Shown here in pieces: positions 18,306-29,100 of a stretch of DNA of 64,000 nt. The stretch's first letter is position 1, and each line of letters begins with the position of its first letter. The stretch comes from Tetradesmus obliquus (taxonomy: Eukaryota; Chlorophyta; Chlorophyceae; Sphaeropleales; Scenedesmaceae): the NCBI GenBank assembly GCA_030272155.1, contig CP126195.1:3517001-3581000 (forward strand), given 5' to 3'. The notes below the pieces were generated by a model, which was not told the DNA's origin, ran no database searches, and was given only the letters and a program-made list of their open reading frames with translations. Position numbers and translations under genes: made by a program.

Positions 18306-20642
18306 ATGGCGGCCATGCGTGTCCTAGTTGCTGCAGCAGCTTTGCTGCTTCTTGCTACAGCCGGCTCTTGCTATGATCTGGCCAACGTCATCAGCCCTAG
18401 GCATGCCTCAATCCTATCAGGTGAGTGGGGGCAATATCAGGCTGTGGTGCAACCCCATCAGAGATCATTGACATCACTGACAGCTGGCTCCTGAAGCAGC
18501 CCCCGCGCATCACATGCATTGACACACCCTTTGCTAGCGGGGCGCAAACAGCATCATGCGCATTTTGAATCCTTAGTTCGCTCCTGATACACCCCTGCAG
18601 TCTTGTACGTTGCCAGCATCTCACAGCTGCTTGCCCTCTTCGCTGTCACACAACAGTGGCGGCTGGGTCCAGTATGCTGCCTTCATCGCTGTCCATGAAC
18701 ACCATGCATGCATCAGTGGTCGGTGCTTGCATAGTTTTACAGTACTGCTCCCTCTTCTGCTCATCGGCTGCTGACCTCTTGTGCATGCTGCTGTTGTTGC
18801 CTCGCAGGCAAGCCAACCCGCAAGCTCCTGCAGGCAACAAACGGCAACAACGTTGCAAACGTGACCACCCCAGCCACCGATGCAGCAACACCTGGCCAGC
18901 TGCCTACACTCGCTGGCCCGGCAGGCAACGCCCTCAACTCCCCTCCAGCCCCGGCAGGAAACGTTGTCATTCCTCCAAGCCCTGCAGGAAACGCTGCATC
19001 CGCTGCAAGCCCCGCAGGAAACACCGCCAGCCCTGTGCTGCGCCAGCCCTTCACTGCCCAGGCCGTCCCCGCCAACGTCCTCACCAACCCAACCGCTGTC
19101 ACATCCCCGCCAACAGCCACCAACAATGGCAACGGCAGGAACAGCAACAATCCTGCAAACCAGGCATCCCCATCACCCCCGCCAGTAGTGACACTGCCGT
19201 CACCTGCTGCCACCCCAGAGGCCAGCCCCTCTCCTTCTCCAGCACCAGTGGCAGCAGTGACACTGCCGTCACCTGCTGCCACCCCAGAGGCCAGCCCCTC
19301 TCCTTCCACAGCACCAGTGGCAGCAGTGACACTGCCGTCACCTGCCGGCAGCAGCCCTGAGGCCAGACCCTCTCCCTCGCCTGCTGCACCCGGCAGCCTC
19401 ACTGCTACCACCCCAGGAGGCACCACCACCACCACCACCTCCCCCAGCCCATCTCCTGCAGTTGTTGATCCAACTGTGGCCTCCACAGCTGCAGCATCGC
19501 CATCCCCATCCCCATCACCATCACCGTCGACCGCGCCTGGTTTCTTGTCTGCCGCAACTCCCATCAACACCACCACCACAGCCACCAGCCCCAGCCCCAG
19601 CTCCAGCCCTGCTACCTCCCCATCCCCATCACCATCACCGTCGACCGCCCCTGGTGTCTTATCTACCGCAACTCCTGCCAATACCACCACCACCGCCACC
19701 AGCCCCAGCCCCAGCCCCAGCCCCAGCCCTGCCCTCAGCAACGCAACCGGCACATCCACCAGCCCCTCCCCTGCCGCCTCTCCCAGCCCCTCACCTAATG
19801 CAACCTCCGCCTCTCCGAGTGCATCACCCAGCCTCAACACAACCTCTCCCGCAGCATCCCCATCTCCCAGCCCTGCAGTCAGCAGCAACACCACTGGTGG
19901 CACCGGCAACAGCAGCAGCGGCAGCGTCACGCTGCCTCCCCTGCCCCAAGGCGCTGACATTGCCAGCACAGTCAGCACCGCCATCGCCAGCAGCAGCGCC
20001 ACAACAGCAGCATCTGCCATCACGGCAGCATCAGCGCGGGGTGAGGCGAGTGCCGCAGCTACAAGCATTGTGCAGCAGGCAAAGGCGGGCCGCATTGATG
20101 CAATCGCAGAGTCGTTTGCGCAGGCAGCGGCGGCCAATGTAGCAGCTACTGCTGCAGTGCTGGCGAGTGCTGCAGCCACTGCAGCCAGCCAGGGCGCAGT
20201 TGAAGAGTTTGGGCGGTCACAAGCCAGGGCATTCACTGTTGCGAAGAGCAGTGGGAACCTGGAAGCCTTCACAAGGACTGCCGCGCAGGCAATCAACGAA
20301 GGCGGGGATGCATCAAACCAAGTGTTTGGTGCGGCATTTGCAGAGGCAGCTGCAGCTGGTGGGGACCAGGGCCAGGCTCTGGCACAAGCTACTGCTCTGG
20401 CTTTCTGCCAGGGCGGTAGCACTGCAACTGCATTCGCATCTGCGTACTCTGTTGCATTGTCGCGCAACAAGCAGGGATGCTTGGTGCTGACGCAGGCGCG
20501 TGCGCTGGCGTTTGCGCAGTGCAGTGGTGGGCAGTTCACTGCTTGGGCTGAGGCGTCTGCAGAGAGCCGCGTGCTGGGTGTGTGTGGGCTGCAGTTCCGC
20601 CTCCTAGAGTTCCCTGGTTTCAACATCAACATTGGCAAATAA
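18306..20642 (+). CDS. SP-rich wall protein with C-terminal Ala-rich four-Cys domain, 649 aa
   Basis: Two exons, 18306-18420 and 18808-20642, with a phase 1 intron (GTGAGT...TCGCAG). Exon 1 encodes a signal peptide (MAAMRVLVAAAALLLLATAG) and a short mature start. Exon 2 begins GKPTRKLLQ. Residues about 60-415 are Ser/Pro/Thr-rich with SPSPSPSP runs, the composition of algal hydroxyproline-rich glycoproteins. Residues about 419-649 form a different domain: Ala/Ser/Gln-rich helical-looking blocks (AESFAQAAAANVAATAAVLA), then conserved AFCQGG, KQGCLVLTQARALAFAQC and VLGVCGL segments and an FNINIG end. The same domain, intron position and RKLLQ motif occur in the gene at 29.9 kb, so the two are paralogues. 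Role in the wall is inferred. The long minus-strand frame over exon 2 is a shadow. Confidence 0.85.
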
Positions 20643-22531
20643 GTGTTCACTTTGTGCTGAACATGTCTGACAGGCTGTTTTTTGGAAATGGCAATGCAAC
20701 GCCATGATTGAGACGTGGTAACCTGAAACGATGGTGTGGTGAATGCATTTTGGCGAGTAGTGGCCTGATCGCGCACTGGCAGTTGCAGCCTGCACTGCAT
20801 GCAGGCCACTTGCTGATCATGATGGATCTGTAGCAGCATACGCTGCCAGCAACTTGCTGTTTTACTTGCTGCGCACTCCAGCACTGCCTAAACGGTATGG
20901 AATAGGGCTTGTGTGTGCAGGCACTTGTCTCTCCCTCGCTTTTGCCTTTCACCGGCAATGCCAGTGGGTGATGCTCATGTGTCACTGCATGGCGCAGTGG
21001 ATTGCTGTGCGCTGTGATGCTGCACTTGATGAGAGCACTTGACAGTTGTGGTGTTGTTTCAGGGTGTTGTATGGTGGGATGCTTGGATGGTATGTATGCT
21101 CTATCTGAACGTGCGATTCATGGTACTATCTTGATGATCAGCATGTGTACACATGTCCCTGCAATGGTGTCGCAAGTGCTGTGATTGCCGATGCAGCTGG
21201 TGGTGACCATATGTAGGTGCACTGCACTGGCAGGTCAACGTATGCGGTGGCATTGCAGTAACAGCATGTTGTGCATAACTGCACAGAGGGTTGTGTATGT
21301 ATGCCGCAGCACACACAGGCCATAGCTGTTTGATCTCTTGATGTGTGTGCCACAAGTGCAGCACCGTGCTGCATCCAGTGACTGGATGTGTCATTGCTTG
21401 TCAGGCGTTGTTGTACTGCGCACCTTGACCAAGAAGAATGTAGCACGCAGCATGCTGAATGAAGGAACAACTGGTTGAGGCCCTTTTAGCTGTTGTCATG
21501 ATGACGTGCCAGTACATAACTTGTCTTGATCAGGATTTGCGCATGCCGGGAAGCGCCTCTTTCCTGAGCGGCTCAGGTGTGTCGAACAATGCAATAGTGT
21601 GGTGTTGCAGTTGCATTGTGTTGGAGTAGGACTTGCATTCGATGATGGGCAGTAAAAATCGCGTGCAGTGTGCAGCACGGCACAGTTGGGCACTGGTGTT
21701 GCACCAGCAGGGCAGCGTATGTGCGGGCGGAGTACTCCACTAGTGGGCTGTGCCAGAGTGTGAACTGCACTGCAGTTCAACGGTTGAACGAAGCTGCACC
21801 AGCACTGGTTTTTAAGTAAAACAGCAAGGCGGACGTTTTAGAGTGTGTATAGCTCCAGACGTATTGTTTCAGTTTGTTGTTCCAGTAGCCCTGGTGTGGC
21901 GTCAGCGCTGCATGGTCTGCCAATCCTTAACGCGTTGTCACCACCTGTTCGAAATCCTTGATGAAGAAGATGCCCTTCAAGCGTGCCACTAGGTCAGCAC
22001 CACACCAGAACTCCGCCAGCTGTTGCCAACACTGCCAGTGTGCCCAGGCTACATCACAATGTCTGGATCACCAGCCTGACCTCCCCCCAGTTGCGAAAAG
22101 GGCAGTAGCTGTTTCTCCTGGCTATCAATCAATTAATGATGCAGAAAAGTGTATTTACGTATTAGGATGCTTCAACTATCTTAATGGCGTTTGGAGGTGT
22201 CACCGCCCATCATGCCAGCAGTGCAGGCAGAACACTACCACATAGGCCCATGCGGTTACAGGACCACAGGCGGCTTCAACAACGCCCATCGTAATCTTTG
22301 ATGCTGTAGAAAGTTCTTTTGCAGTCTTATCATGCGTCGCCCTGATTATCGATTCAGCGATGGCTCTGTCACCGGGTCAAGGGCTCAGCGAATCGATCCC
22401 CGTGCAGGGAAACGCTATGCAGGGACAAGAATATCTTTAAAAATGTGACTTGCACGGTAATATGGTCGTTATAATTGGGTACACCTTAGATCGGCAATAG
22501 TTGTGCAGGGAGAACAGTGTAGCACGCCACA
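20643..22531. other. Intergenic region, no gene seen
   Basis: Contains the 3' UTR of the SP-rich gene and the upstream region of the transporter fusion gene. Base composition is lower in triplet repeats than the genes. No supported exons and no repeat of note. Confidence 0.4.
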
Positions 22532-23280
22532 ATGCTCATATACGGGCTCGCAGCTATCCTATGCGGCTTGTATGCAACAGACACGATACTTGTAGCTTAC
22601 AGCTACCGCACCTGGTCAGATAACCCGCACAGCTCGCAGCTGCTGTTCCTGTCAGAGGGTCTGAAGCTGTTCTTAGCAACCTGCCTGTTCCTAGCAGAGA
22701 ATCCTGCAGGACGAAATGGATTCTCGCTTTTGCCTAAGATACACCCTACAGACAAAGAGCAGCATGCAGGCCTGCTGCCTAAGAGTCCCTTGACAAAGTG
22801 GGAGGCGCTGCTGGCCAAGCTGAAGGGAGTGATGCTTTTTGCAGTCCCAGCGCTGTGTTACTTCACCACAAACAAGTGAGTGGGGAGCTTGGCATTGTAT
22901 TGTGTGTTAAATCAGTTTGACTCAGCTGAGAGCTGGCCCTTCAGCAGCAGACAGACAGCTATGAGCGTGTGGGCTGGTTTGCAGCTGGATGAGTGTATGG
23001 TCGGGTGGTGGGTGGGGGAAAGCCATACTGCATGCGAGTTAGAGCATGAGCCGTCGCGAACAAGATTGCAACCTGCATGCCGCTGCAGCTGCACACGCAG
23101 TTGATGTTGCCTGCCAGCCCATGCTACGTTGTTTGGCAGCACGTACTTCTTGGCTGGAGCGTCCCACCAGCAAACTCCTGCTGGCACTGCAGCTTATGCA
23201 GCAGCCAGCATCCCTGCCTCTGCGCCAATATCCTCACCCCCGGCAAACAAACCGCACTCTGTCTTTGTGTGACACACTCA

Positions 23281-23352
<72 letters not shown>

Positions 23353-25401
23353 CCTGTCCTTCTACGCGCTGCGCATCATGTCAGCGCACACCTACACGCT
23401 ACTGGGCGACCTCAAGGTCATCACCACATGCGTGCTGAGCTACCTGGTGCTAGACAAGCACCTCAACAGGCAGGCAGTGCTCAGCCTTCTGCTGCTGTTT
23501 GCAGGCATCTGCATCGGGCAGTATGCAACCATGGGCGGCAGCCCGCCGCCGCCCGTCCCTGCAGCAGCAGTCACAGCAGCTAGCAATGCGTCGGCAGCAG
23601 CGGTAGAAACAGCTGCAGCGGGCCGCGGGATTACTGACTTCAGCGGTGGCGGTGCAGGCGGTACAAGTTTGTACTGCCCTCAGTGGTTGCCAGGGCTGCT
23701 GGTGATGCTGGTGGTATCCAAGCTGTCTGCAATCGCCTCAGTGTGGACCGAGTGGACCATGAACCACAGCAGCTACAAACACGAGTCCATCAACCTGCAG
23801 AACGCACGGCTGTATGTGGCCGGCACGCTACTGAATGGGCTGTACTTCCTGCAGTCTGGCGGTAGCCTGGAGGGCTTTGGCAGCAACGTGCGGCCGGTGC
23901 ACTGGGTGATTGTGCTGTCCTGCGCGCTCATGGGGCTCGTCACGGTGAGAGGAGACATTCAACATATTATGTGCTCAATTTGGAATAAAATAACTCAACC
24001 AATCAATTACTTGATATTTTGACGAATTGGTGTTGTATTTATGGCTGGTGCTGTCCAGCGCGTTGATGGGCCTGGTCACGGTGAGCGGCTGGCGACCGGT
24101 GGTAGATTAGTGACGCGCATGCGGGGGATCTATGCATGCGCGGACTTAGCACTGCCTTGGCTCAGTCATGCATGCGCGGACTCCATCGCCACTGCCATCA
24201 GCATCAGATTGTGCACACCCATCCTCACCCTTCGCTTGCGCACATGCACATGCTGTCACTCTCACATTCACCCACTCACACCTGCACGCCTTCATGCACC
24301 ACCACTTCCCCACACACGCTGTTATGCACGCAGGCCCTGCTGATCAAGCGGTACGGCAACGTGATCAAGGTGTACGCCTCATGCGTGGCAAGCCTCTTTG
24401 CAGCCGGCATCAGCCACACACTGCTCAACGATCCACCGCCAGTTCTATTCTATCTGGGCTGCGGCCTAGCCATGTTTGCAACGATCCAGCTCCAGGCAGC
24501 ACGCGCAGCAATGGCAGCACAGGACAAGGCCGCAGTAGTGGCTGGCCTGCAGAAGGCGTCTGATGCGGGAGAGGGCTCGTCCCCGAAGTCACAGCAGCAG
24601 CAAGGCTTTGCAAAGCTCGGCAAGGCTGTGGCCCTGCCTGCAGCGGCATCCCTCGCCATGCTGCTGATTGCGGCGTTGGTGTCGACGCAAGCATGCGCCG
24701 GCAGCAGCAGCAGCAGCAGCAGTGGGATGCCGGGCGGCGCGCCACAAAACCAGGTGGTATGGAACACCACGGAAGCCCCCATGCGTGTGTTTGCGCCGCA
24801 GCTACCACTGTGCTTCCCTGACCCAGTTGAGATGAACCGCATGGGTGCGCCCGTGATCAACTGCGCGCTGGATGCGCGCTGCAATGTGGGCGACCCTCGC
24901 TGCTGCGCCTATATCAACTTTGAGATGCTCAAGTTCCTGGACTCCTTCTTATCCTCGAAATGCCTGGAAGGAGAGTGGCTGGTCGTGTATGGCACAGCCC
25001 TAGGAGGAGTACGGAATGGGACGATTCTAGCCCATACACAGGATGTGGATCTGGCTCTATCACCTAGGGCTATCCAGGTGCTAGAGCAGAATGCTACAAA
25101 AGAGGAGCTATACCGCGCCGGCTATCTGTTTTGGCACCACGCGCGGCGCGGGGTGTGGAAGCTTGTGCCGCATCACAAGCACCCCTCGCCGCAGTTCCGC
25201 GCAGTCATGCTGTTCAATGAGACAGTGGGGCAGTGGGAGACGCGCACCGGCAGCTTTGTTGGCGGGTATGTGGATGGCTGGGTGATGTGGCCGGTGCCTC
25301 AAGGCACCCGATGTGATAGGCGGCTGAGGGGAGCTAACTTCACTGCAATGATTCAGGATGCATTTCCCTGGCCCCCGATGCCACAGAGCAGCGCGTGCAA
25401 G

Positions 25402-25439
<38 letters not shown>

Positions 25440-26166
25440 TACTGCGAGCGCCCAGCAGTTCTGCTTGCAGGAGTGCCACATTGCAGCGCAAGTGCAGCCT
25501 GGGCTGCGGCCGCTGCGCATTGCTGGCGTGGACTTCCCGGCTGCTTCCAACCTAGAAGAGTGAGTGGCTGCTGTTTTGTCATGTTGCTGGGGTAACTGGG
25601 GTGTTGGCATTGAGCATGCTGCGTTGTCAATGTTGTCAGCAGCCAGGGCTGGCTGTCCCAACAGTTGAGCAGCGCAGCTGACTGTGACACTGCACAAGAT
25701 GCCTGCCCAGACACAGACCATACATGCTCGTGTATGTACGTGTGTGCACGCTGTTCCTCTGCCAGAAGCTTGTGTGGGTTCCGAGAATGGCAGTCACCTG
25801 GCCTCTGGTGCGCAAATGCCCGCCAGGGCTTTTGCAGCAACGTCCTGCAGCTGCACTGCACGTTTGAGTGATACAGGTGTGCTCAACGACACACGTTCGC
25901 TCAACCCTGGGCATTGCCCATGTTAACGTCGCTGCCCCTATGTTTGCAATTGCTGCAGGCTGTTGGTGGCGACATACGGGAAGTCCTGGCGTCACCCAAA
26001 CACTAAGTACCACGGCCATAGTGGCGCCTCACCCGATGTTCGCAAGGTGGTTGGTGCATTGCTGCAGCGCCTGTCAGTGACTGCGTGGGGTGACACACCC
26101 TTCCAGCAGCGCAAGGCGCAGTGCAGAAAGCTGTGCAGGGCGAGCCACAGGAGGCAATGTGTGTGA
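22532..26166 (+). CDS. Nucleotide-sugar transporter fused to LicD/fukutin-like transferase, 789 aa
   Basis: Four exons: 22532-22875, 23353-23944, 24334-25559, 25959-26166 (2370 bases; phases 2, 0, 2 agree). Residues 1-365 match the SLC35A/CMP-sialate transporter fold: about ten helices, YFTTNNLSFYALRIM, HTYTLLGDLKV and NGLYFLQSGG, with GLVTALLIKRYGNVIKVYA across an intron. An added hydrophobic helix (residues about 410-430, LPAAASLAMLLIAALV) follows. Residues about 470-789 are LicD/fukutin-like: VYGTALGGVRNGT, then QDVDLALSP with a DxD-type acidic pair, GYVDGWVMWP, and the usual C-terminal LLVATYGKSW. NST carriers exchange nucleotide sugars across the Golgi membrane. LicD/FKTN/FKRP proteins transfer phosphocholine or ribitol phosphate from CDP donors. 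With ten helices plus one, the enzyme would face the lumen. A poly-Ser run near residue 670 comes from (CAG)n. The substrate is unknown. Confidence 0.88.
23284..23349 (+). repeat. (CTG)n tract at an intron 3' end
   Basis: 22 CTG triplets run directly into the CCAG acceptor of the second exon of the transporter fusion gene and stand where a polypyrimidine tract would be. Confidence 0.97.
24043..24087 (+). repeat. Intronic copy of the exon 2 3' end and donor site
   Basis: About 45 bases resemble 23906-23950, the end of exon 2 with its GTGAG donor. The copy still reads LSSALMGLVT before GTGAGC, against LSCALMGLVT in the exon. Most differences fall at third positions. No good acceptor precedes it in the right phase, so it is probably a relic. 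Confidence 0.7.
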
Positions 26167-29100
26167 TCTTGGCTGTGCTAAAAAATGTTATTATATTACA
26201 TGTTTGGTGTTGTTCTGCGTCACACATGCATTCATCGATCAACATGCGCATGTACAATTGTTGTGCCGGTGTGTTTGCGGTCAGCGGCAACTGACACAGA
26301 TGATGCATGATGCTTGAACATCCCGGTAACAGGCGTTGTTGATGCGCTGCTGAACACTAAGGCATTAATGATGGCGGTATGTGGGTGTATGTGCTGCTGA
26401 ACAACAGGCAGTTTCTTCTGCTGTATGTGCATGTATGTGCTGCTGAACAGCAGGCAGTAATATGGCTGTATGTGTGTGCATGTGTACGGATGGGGTGGAG
26501 GTTGATGTGGTCGGTGCTGGGGGGTGTTGTAGGGTGTCCCTAGACAGCATGAGTAGCAGTCAGCATATGGCTGCAAGCATCCACACATGCTGACAGGGTA
26601 CCCGATGTGTATTACGTTGCTGATGTTGCTGCAAGCACTTGTGTGTTACAATACTATTGTTGCGGCAAGCACTGATGGATGATGTTGTGCTTCTTGGGGC
26701 ACAGTTCTGTGTGCTTCAAAAGGGGACGAGAAGTCATGGACATAAAAAATGACAACGTTCTAACAGGTTTGTCACTGTGGCCTGTATGTGGCTGTTCCTG
26801 GCATGGACTGGTGTTAGTATGTGGCTGTGAGTGGCCACTTGTGAAGGCAAGCAGCAGCACAGCCTCATTCACTGTGCTTGCGAGCCTGAGACCTCTCCCT
26901 GTGTTTGGCTGCTTGTGAAGGCAAGCAGCAGCACAGTCTCAATCACTGTGCTTGCAAGCCTGAGACCTGCCACCGTGAGTGGCCGCTTGTGAAGGCAAGC
27001 AGCAGCATAGCCTCAACCACTGTGCTTGCGAGCCTGAGACCAGTCACCATGTTTGGCCGCTTGTGAAGGCGAAGAGCAGCACAGGCTCAATCGCTCTGCT
27101 TGCAAGCCTGAGAGACCGGTCACCGCAATTGGCCGCTTGTGAAGGCAAGCAGCAGCACAGCCTCAACCACTGTGCTTGCAAGCCTGAGGGACCGGTCACC
27201 ATGTTTGGCCGCTTGTGAAGGCAAGCAGCAGCACAGCCTCAACCACTGTGCTTGCGAGCCTGAGAGGCCCGTCCCTGCCACCTTTTTAGAGTCACTTGTA
27301 CAGCCCTGCCAGTGGGCACGTGGCGCATGGGGCTTTTCCGGCCGTTTTGTGCAGCCTGTTGGTCAGGAAGCAATGCACGCATGGCACTGCTGATAATATC
27401 TGCAGGTGCACTGCTAGTCGTGCCTTCACGAGCTGTTTTAGTAACTGTGTCCCGTGCGTGGCTGTGGCTAGGCTGAATTGGCTCTGATTTGTGGCCGTGA
27501 TCAGCCAATTGTGAAGGCGAGGAGCAGCACAGCCTCAATCACTGTGCTTGCGAGCCTGAATGTCACGCGGAACATGCGTGGTTATGCCAGACATGAATCA
27601 CGTTCTTTTGGTTCAGCTATGCAGTGCAGCATTGCACATGGTGCTGTACATGGCACACGGTGCAGCAGCAGTAGCTGTGGAGGCAGTACAAGGGTTCCAG
27701 ATGGGTGGCTTACTGCAGCAGCAGTGGTGTTGTCAGTACAGATGGGACAGCAGCATAGTTACGGTACAATGGTGTGTACGTTGCGCAGCTGATGAAAAGA
27801 ATCGCTGCGTGACGTTGTTGTATGTGTTTGCGTCTGGCAGCCTGGCGCTTGCACCACTTGGCGTCGCCATACCGTACCACGCAGTCATTTCTCTTCTTGA
27901 CAGACCGAGTGCTTGTGTCAGTAGACTGAAACTATGTGTGTTCATTGTATGTGCGTGTGTGTGAGACAGTTAGTATGTGGCAGCGCCAGCTGTAGAAGTG
28001 CTTGATCAGGGGCGCCTGCTAGTGGTGTTGAGTGCAGGTGTGCTGCTGTATGGTGTGGTAGTAGCTGACGAGCCATGGTAGGCGTACAACATCATCAGCA
28101 GTGCTTTTGTGCGCAGTGCTACCTGGTAGTTTCAAATCAGTAATATTTGACACCAGCAGTTGCTGCACCTCTTTGTCAACCTTGCAGCTGCGCTGCAAAG
28201 TTGAGGGGGGTAGTCCAGTGCATCATATGCTGTGCCTTTTTGTTGGCAGTGTTCACTTATTCACTTATTCTGCATGACAGCCGTCATGTGGAGCATAAGT
28301 GATCTTTGCTGATGTGCGTCACTTTTGAGTTCAGCTATGTGCAGTGCAGCAGTGTGTTCAACAGCAACCTAGCAGGCATGCAAAGTTCACTGTGCATTAT
28401 GCACTTGACGTGCTTTGCTGTCTTGGCAGCTTAGCTAGCCTCGTGCCTGCACACATTTGCTGCTTTGTCAATGAGCGCACGAGTCAATTTGTGCAGCTTG
28501 TCTTGTGCCGGTGATTGTCCGCATCAGCTTTACACTTGCCGGGTTTTGCTGAATGTCTGTCATTCAGCTGTCAAATGTGACCAGCAAGTTGGCAGATGAT
28601 GGTTGCTGACAGCCTTGTCATGCACTGCTGATCTGGATTTGGTATGGCTCATCTAGCTTCAGTCTAGTTAACCTTTGCCGCCTTGCAATGCAAGGGATGC
28701 TGAACAGGTGACTCCCTTGGGCTCGTGCAAGTGTGCATCATGCACTCCCATGATGGGCCTCTAGAGACCTTGCGCTGTCCAGCTAGGACTGCTTATTCTT
28801 TTGCATGCGACCACGCCCGGTTGTTGTGGCCGATTTGTCCACTCTTCAGCAAGTGGTTCGCCCGTTTGAGGGACGCAGTGTCCTGTATGAGGTCTGTCAA
28901 CCGGCGGCAGCAAAAGGCCGCCGCTTGCAGCAGCTGTGCAAAGCACAGTATGCCTCAAAGCAAGCTGCACACTCTGAGTTTAGCCAGGACATGCACCTGC
29001 TGCGGTAAGACCGTGTGACAGCAGCCTTCAAGGCACAAGTTGTGTGTTGTTGTGGTTGTTGAAATTGTGAACTGTAACTTGCGAGTAGCTGAACTGCAGT

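Follow-up and report, generated by a model that had tools for sequence, protein, structure and literature searches.

The carriers that bring nucleotide-activated donors into the Golgi are generally regarded as proteins distinct from the enzymes that use those donors, and which carrier serves which enzyme has to be worked out. In SLC35 carriers both termini are cytosolic. FKRP, the human muscular-dystrophy protein, is a CDP (cytidine diphosphate)-ribitol:glycan ribitol-phosphate transferase; it stands alone as a protein, with a stem domain but without a carrier. MprF is a natural bacterial fusion of a membrane transporter and an enzyme of the same pathway, although it belongs to unrelated families and its work is the aminoacylation and flipping of lipids. 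This report concerns a gene of the green alga Tetradesmus obliquus that encodes, in one polypeptide, an SLC35A-type carrier followed by a LicD/FKRP-like domain. The gene lies at positions 22532-26166 of the plus strand of the window, the whole stretch of 64,000 nucleotides that was analysed (from contig CP126195.1). Judged by sequence comparison, the protein is a new and conserved arrangement of two known kinds of domain. The initial annotation of the locus knew of no fusion of this kind, and in open-access full text no description was found of a carrier-LicD/fukutin fusion or of a carrier fused with a glycosyltransferase domain, nor was any paper found there that pairs LicD or fukutin with algae.

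The gene begins with an ATG at 22532 and its stop codon ends at 26166; four exons encode 789 amino acids, for which a mass of about 84 kDa is estimated. The initial annotation had these coordinates and the in-frame linkage of the exons exactly right, and the same exon joins occur in the NCBI model P0002 (‘hypothetical protein OEZ85_002878 [Tetradesmus obliquus]’, 788 residues, 99% identical). An in-frame stop ends 9 bases 5' of the ATG (the stop-to-stop frame begins at 22523), and all three introns run from GT to AG. Exon 1 (22532-22875) encodes the start of the carrier with its first three hydrophobic segments and includes E42 and K45, the equivalents of E52 and K55 of SLC35A1. The middle of the carrier, with K136, T140, S240, N265, Y269 and T312, is encoded by exon 2 (23353-23944), which rests, like exon 1, on the gene model and the joins of P0002, and additionally on the Pfam match to PF04142. 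Exon 3 (24334-25559), a single open frame, covers the last carrier spans, a linker that contains an extra hydrophobic span, and the greater part of the LicD/FKRP-like domain; exon 4 (25959-26166) supplies the C-terminal end and the stop codon. At the splice acceptor of intron 1, a perfect (TGC)22 repeat (23284-23349) ends 3 bases 5' of exon 2. Within intron 2, positions 24049-24085 form a near copy (5 mismatches in 37) of the end of exon 2 and its splice donor (23913-23949); the copy would encode LSSALMGLVT, against LSCALMGLVT, and is possibly an alternative exon end or a duplication relic.

The carrier half ends inside exon 3 (24334-24513, residues 313-372, including A313, K317 and K324), and its junction with the LicD-like domain lies at about 24514-24762, still inside that exon and with no stop in frame. 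Because the halves meet within one open exon, no guessed splice is needed, and the fusion of carrier and LicD-like half in one protein is confirmed. The linker between the halves (83 residues) looks short and of low complexity, and third-position G+C stays level throughout (0.70 in the carrier, 0.72 in the linker, 0.70 in the LicD half). The link had been placed at 23.9-24.4 kb in the initial annotation, but that interval is intron 2 and falls inside the carrier; that the junction is in exon 3, not in intron 2, makes the observation of the fusion stronger. Transcripts that stop after the carrier, or a promoter of its own for the LicD half, appear unlikely, since the junction lies in a single exon whose frame is kept in two further proteins, P0001 and P0003.

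The fused design recurs when it is sought in other proteins. Three further database entries (P0001, P0003 and P0004) have the same order of carrier, extra hydrophobic span and LicD-like domain. In P0001 (432 aa) the same exon is 79% identical and its frame is intact through the linker, with identities of 58/60 in the carrier, 54/80 in the linker and 214/256 in the LicD region. P0003 (630 aa) is 36% identical across exon 3, and its frame stops at the homologous exon end; P0004 (550 aa) is 34% identical over 520 alignment columns that include the catalytic motif, and its C-terminus diverges. P0004 was named ‘probable UDP-sugar transporter A4’ by the Joint Genome Institute (JGI; UDP, uridine diphosphate), P0002 is unnamed in NCBI, and the precomputed Pfam domains of neither include LicD. 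A carrier-directed protein search, which scored 7,995 candidates of roughly 430-1380 residues, yielded at least four proteins, of which P0002, P0003 and P0004 are fusions and P0005 is not; this ratio is silent on how frequent the fusion is, because ordinary carriers are too short for the candidate list. P0005, a carrier from Prymnesium parvum that is long (925 aa) but shows no match to LicD at E<=1, was excluded from the set of fusions. P0002 was the sole protein listed by a LicD-directed search of 534 candidates. Searches by DNA patterns matched 114 stretches of viral_contigs and 24 of genome_contigs, none of which was confirmed as a relative of the fusion; P0001 had no match among phages and, among PHROGs, matched a family of unknown function at E 0.027-0.07 only. 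A CAG repeat (25404-25438) codes for poly-Ser in the LicD half, where P0002, from the NCBI strain, has one Ser fewer.

Domain searches of both halves bear out the two assignments made initially, that of the carrier directly and that of the LicD half by profile-profile comparison. The carrier half matches Pfam Nuc_sug_transp (PF04142) with an E-value of 3.7e-26 and 92.4 bits against a cut-off of 27, and its pocket resembles that of SLC35A1. Against PDB at E<=1, P0002 matches CMP-sialic acid transporters only (CMP, cytidine monophosphate), the best being CMP-sialic acid transporter 1 (6i1r, E 1.7e-14). Mutagenesis of SLC35A1 identifies E52, K55, K124, T128, S188, Y214 and K272 as critical (PMC8411240). 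All seven are identical in the fusion (E42, K45, K136, T140, S240, Y269 and K324); in P0003 and P0004 the part bearing E52 and K55 is missing, and the others are kept, five of five. Tyr214 of SLC35A1 is Gly in SLC35A2 and SLC35A3 (PMC6508934), and this position is Tyr in P0002, P0003 and P0004. The fusion is thus like SLC35A1 and the plant CMP-sialic acid transporter 1 in sequence and in all seven critical pocket residues; unlike SLC35A1, it continues past the carrier with a further span and an enzyme-like domain. When overlapping segments are merged, hydropathy assigns nine segments to the carrier of P0002 and adds the one extra span; a candidate tenth carrier span, at about 261-282, appears as a helix in a structure model of low confidence.

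The second half, which contains VYGTALGGVRNGT...QDVD, is by profile comparison a distant homologue of LicD. The closest NCBIfam model was that of a LicD-like cholinephosphotransferase (NF045866), matched by the 304-residue half at E 2e-8, P0002 at 2.3e-7, P0003 at 6.5e-7, P0001 at 3.2e-4, exon 3 at 5.1e-4 and P0004 at 2.2e-3, all far under the cut-off. Membership of that family (Mf1, diacylglycerol cholinephosphotransferase) was rejected at 34.6 bits against a cut-off of 225. The sole Pfam line for the LicD half was NTP_transf_8, with E 0.21 on a 103-residue piece. Plasmids searched by tblastn with the LicD half of P0003 yielded 11 records at E<=10, of which six carry the annotation LicD (each at E 3-10); the two best matches, at E 0.09 and 0.1, were Vibrio proteins annotated DUF6058. 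Five of the six plasmid LicD proteins, all above the Pfam LicD cut-off, served as the bacterial comparison set (272-280 aa, with LicD as the sole Pfam match at E<=0.001). When the algal core was compared with these five by hhalign, the probability was 98.0% and the score 81.8 over 52 core columns, from profiles that are shallow (4 and 5 sequences); 200 column shuffles of the core reached at best a score of 17.2 and a probability of 0.91%. A longer profile of the LicD half gave 97.2% and a score of 80.7 (best of 100 shuffles, 23.1), and a profile of the whole fusion gave 96.8%. The initial view that the second half is of LicD/fukutin type is therefore upheld by profile-profile homology with the bacterial LicD family (PF04991), though Pfam LicD itself was not listed. 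By eye, YGKSW in exon 4 (25975-25989) resembles the C-terminal YG motif of bacterial LicD proteins in the alignment. The algal domain differs from these proteins in falling under the Pfam cut-off and in having Thr for the first Asp.

Among 177,635 distinct PDB sequences, the core profile matched FKRP and no other at E<=10 (E 0.038), and the longer profile ranked FKRP at the head of three matches (E 0.45), neither match being significant alone. In one FKRP study, the zinc ligands are Cys289, 296, 317 and 318, and D360, D362, D364 and D416 were mutated and are regarded as required for activity (PMC6965139). The fusion has a four-cysteine cluster, C-x5-C-x6-CC (24862-24906, residues 489-503), that resembles the FKRP zinc finger (C-x6-C-x20-CC). 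It is present in five of five sequences (P0001-P0004 and a paralogue described below) and arose in 0-4 of 2000 shuffles of each. From the last Cys it is 44 residues to D362 in FKRP and 46 residues to D549 in the fusion. The nucleotidyltransferase-type motif YGTALGG...T-x-D-V-D follows (24988-25050, residues 531-551), in which D549 and D551 correspond to FKRP D362 and D364 and are invariant in all four fusions. A candidate third catalytic Asp, D626, is found in YVDGW (25267-25281, residues 624-628); aligned by eye with HVDLW of FKRP and FVDIW of P0003, it is probably the equivalent of FKRP D416, and it is present in three of the four fusions, the divergent C-terminus of P0004 being without it. 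FKRP and the fusion thus share G-x-x-L-G-x-x-R...D-V-D at equal spacing, a C4 cluster before it, and a candidate V-D-x-W Asp; they differ at the first catalytic Asp, which is Thr in the fusion, and in the cysteine loop, which is shorter (x6 against x20). One plasmid LicD protein, from Gloeothece PCC 7822 (L024:1111-1950), has the C-x6-C-x20-CC of FKRP, which the four others lack. It matches FKRP structure entries at E 1.9e-17 and, in single comparisons, P0004 at E 1e-9 and P0002 at E 2e-5; since it matches both, it ties the algal domain to FKRP as an intermediate. None of 45 stretches of genome_contigs was confirmed as a close relative of the Gloeothece protein, for which plasmids and phages gave listings of 16 and 10 records.

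The T. obliquus genome itself (104.7 Mb, 17 contigs) gave 12 matches to the LicD half: two are the fusion gene, nine are weak (E 0.0076-0.26), and the remaining match is a true paralogue (G000:C6:2517468-2517752; 37% identity, E 1.8e-14). The paralogue region (L016:2883-5973, G000:C6) has long open frames in the order carrier, hydrophobic stretch (by eye) and LicD half. The carrier and the LicD half lie in different frames, which several in-frame GT-AG introns would join as a candidate arrangement. Its carrier frame is divergent (PF04142 at E 6.9e-5 and 22.5 bits, under the cut-off of 27) and, in an alignment that is uncertain for that reason, has Glu for T128 and Ser for N210 and Y214, so that five of the seven critical residues are retained. 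The LicD-half frame, without a match in Pfam or NCBIfam, retains the cysteine cluster but, when aligned, has RLD opposite DVD and Ala opposite D626. With catalytic and carrier residues both altered, the paralogue may be a non-catalytic partner. A carrier-half search at E<=0.01 returned the fusion gene only and missed the carrier of the paralogue, and a six-frame Pfam LicD search gave no match but missed the fusion likewise, so absence of further genes is not shown. A second carrier region (L030) had no carrier match at E<=0.05 and was of no use as a comparison.

From these features we infer the location, topology, activity, donor and acceptor of the protein. The extra span (24625-24681, residues 410-428, by hydropathy) is the most hydrophobic segment of P0002 (2.41) and has counterparts in P0001, P0003 and P0004; with the carrier ending in the cytosol, as SLC35 carriers do, and one extra span following, the LicD-like domain would lie on the lumenal side. 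The favoured reading, which we judge somewhat better than an even bet, is a membrane protein of the Golgi or endoplasmic reticulum that couples import of a CDP donor to its use by the fused LicD/FKRP-like domain. The first 372 residues would act as an SLC35A-type antiporter of cytidine-nucleotide conjugates, and an eleventh membrane span would carry the C-terminal domain into the lumen. That domain would move a phospho-alditol, phosphoglycerol, phosphocholine or phosphoethanolamine group from the CDP donor onto a glycan, and the released CMP would be the counter-substrate, exported by the same carrier. Such a closed cycle (CDP donor in, CMP out) is possible because carriers of the SLC35A class return the nucleoside monophosphate (PMC6508934) and the FKRP reaction releases CMP (PMC6965139). 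In its full form, the protein would be a vectorial phosphotransferase with import of CDP-alditol, -glycerol, -choline or -ethanolamine, its own lumenal transfer, export of CMP and one-to-one coupling; this we put forward tentatively, at a little under even chances.

A number of observations weigh against a coupled carrier and transferase. On the carrier side, the Q101 position of SLC35A1 is Thr in P0002, and at the S261 position P0004 has Ser, but P0002 and P0003 have the Ala of UDP carriers. The critical residues and the Tyr do not mark the fusion as special, since six of the seven are retained in P0005, which is not fused (and has Ser at Y214), and the Y214-type Tyr also occurs in a carrier on contig C2 of the same genome that has no neighbouring match to the LicD half. 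On the enzyme side, Pfam LicD was listed neither for the whole protein (E<=1) nor for the half (E<=10), in searches where HMMER filters discard most matches above about E 0.1; P0003 and P0004 score 20.7 and 19.0 bits at the motif against the Pfam gathering cut-off of 22.6; and FKRP was not listed at E<=1 in single-sequence PDB searches with exon 3, P0002 or P0004. The position of FKRP D360 is Thr547, and Thr in all four fusions (T-x-D-V-D, not D-x-D-x-D). Structure predictions were too poor for use, both of the whole fusion (mean predicted local distance difference test, pLDDT, 36.9) and of the LicD half (pLDDT 42.6; predicted template modelling score, pTM, 0.48); in Foldseek, the top four of 24 matches to the LicD-half model were FKRP chains, a weak result (E 0.8-2.7, none at E<=0.001). 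With regard to the donor, SLC35A1 and SLC35A4 carry CDP-ribitol redundantly according to a review (PMC8587909). CDP-ribitol is nevertheless not favoured here, because a six-frame IspD search of the genome found two stretches that read as exons of a single gene, the only IspD-family gene seen; a second, CDP-ribitol-making relative was not evident in this search, which can miss genes, and no CTP_transf_like domain was found in a search limited by the introns that split genes.

These points bear unequally on the other explanations. The carrier may be an ordinary one for another donor, such as CMP-Kdo (3-deoxy-D-manno-octulosonic acid) or a UDP-sugar, that anchors or positions the LicD-like domain by a glycosyltransferase, with the two activities unchained. 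The Tyr of the C2 carrier and the Ala at Ser261 suit this account, which we regard as a less likely but serious competitor; it does not readily explain why the fused architecture is retained in proteins only 34-36% identical, or why the paralogue is altered in both halves at once (RLD for DVD and Ala for D626 in one, Glu for T128 and Ser for Y214 in the other), though five of its seven critical residues are kept. Rather unlikely, in our estimate, is a LicD-like domain that no longer catalyses and serves the carrier as a binding or regulatory domain in the lumen. The Thr at the position of the first catalytic Asp speaks for such a loss, FKRP D360 being described as indispensable; yet the same source reports His at this position in ANT(2'')-Ia, an enzyme of the same superfamily (PMC6965139), the invariance of D549 and D551 and the presence of D626 in three fusions argue for catalysis, and it is the paralogue, without equivalents of D549 and D626, that looks like the inactive copy. 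A cytosolic LicD-like domain, reached if the extra hydrophobic stretch is not one span, seems improbable: the topology rests on hydropathy, and the stretch of P0003 (347-388) is broad enough for one or two spans, but no other segment of P0002 is as hydrophobic, the stretch recurs in the other fusions, and the conserved cysteines upstream of the motif fit a secretory compartment or a metal site. That two adjacent genes were merged by mis-assembly or mis-annotation might be suggested by the two frames of the paralogue, but one exon spans the junction and is open in P0001 and P0003 as well, the NCBI and JGI models (P0002 and P0004) are both fused, and third-position G+C is even; this account is largely refuted and has only the slightest chance of being correct.

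The coupled carrier and transferase would matter in several ways. As a conserved natural fusion it would name a carrier-enzyme pair and make substrate channelling testable, and it would point to phosphodiester glycan modification of the FKRP type in green algae. If the vectorial phosphotransferase is real, it implies an undescribed phosphodiester-linked glycan modification in some green algae. A covalent pairing of a carrier with an FKRP-like domain would also bear on the supply of CDP-ribitol to fukutin enzymes in human muscle.

The surroundings of the gene add little to the choice of acceptor. The initial annotation had suggested that the glycans modified may be those of wall proteins encoded next door, but this link is one of adjacency and gained no support; the neighbouring open frame has no Pfam match at E<=0.01. 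That frame (18735-20642, upstream) is rich in Ser-Pro repeats and wall-protein-like. The poly(A) motif TGTAA does not occur anywhere in 22001-27000, a region that includes the sequence downstream of the fusion gene, and is hence uninformative. Downstream of the gene, positions 26832-27265 hold a minisatellite of 5.8 copies of a 74-base unit.

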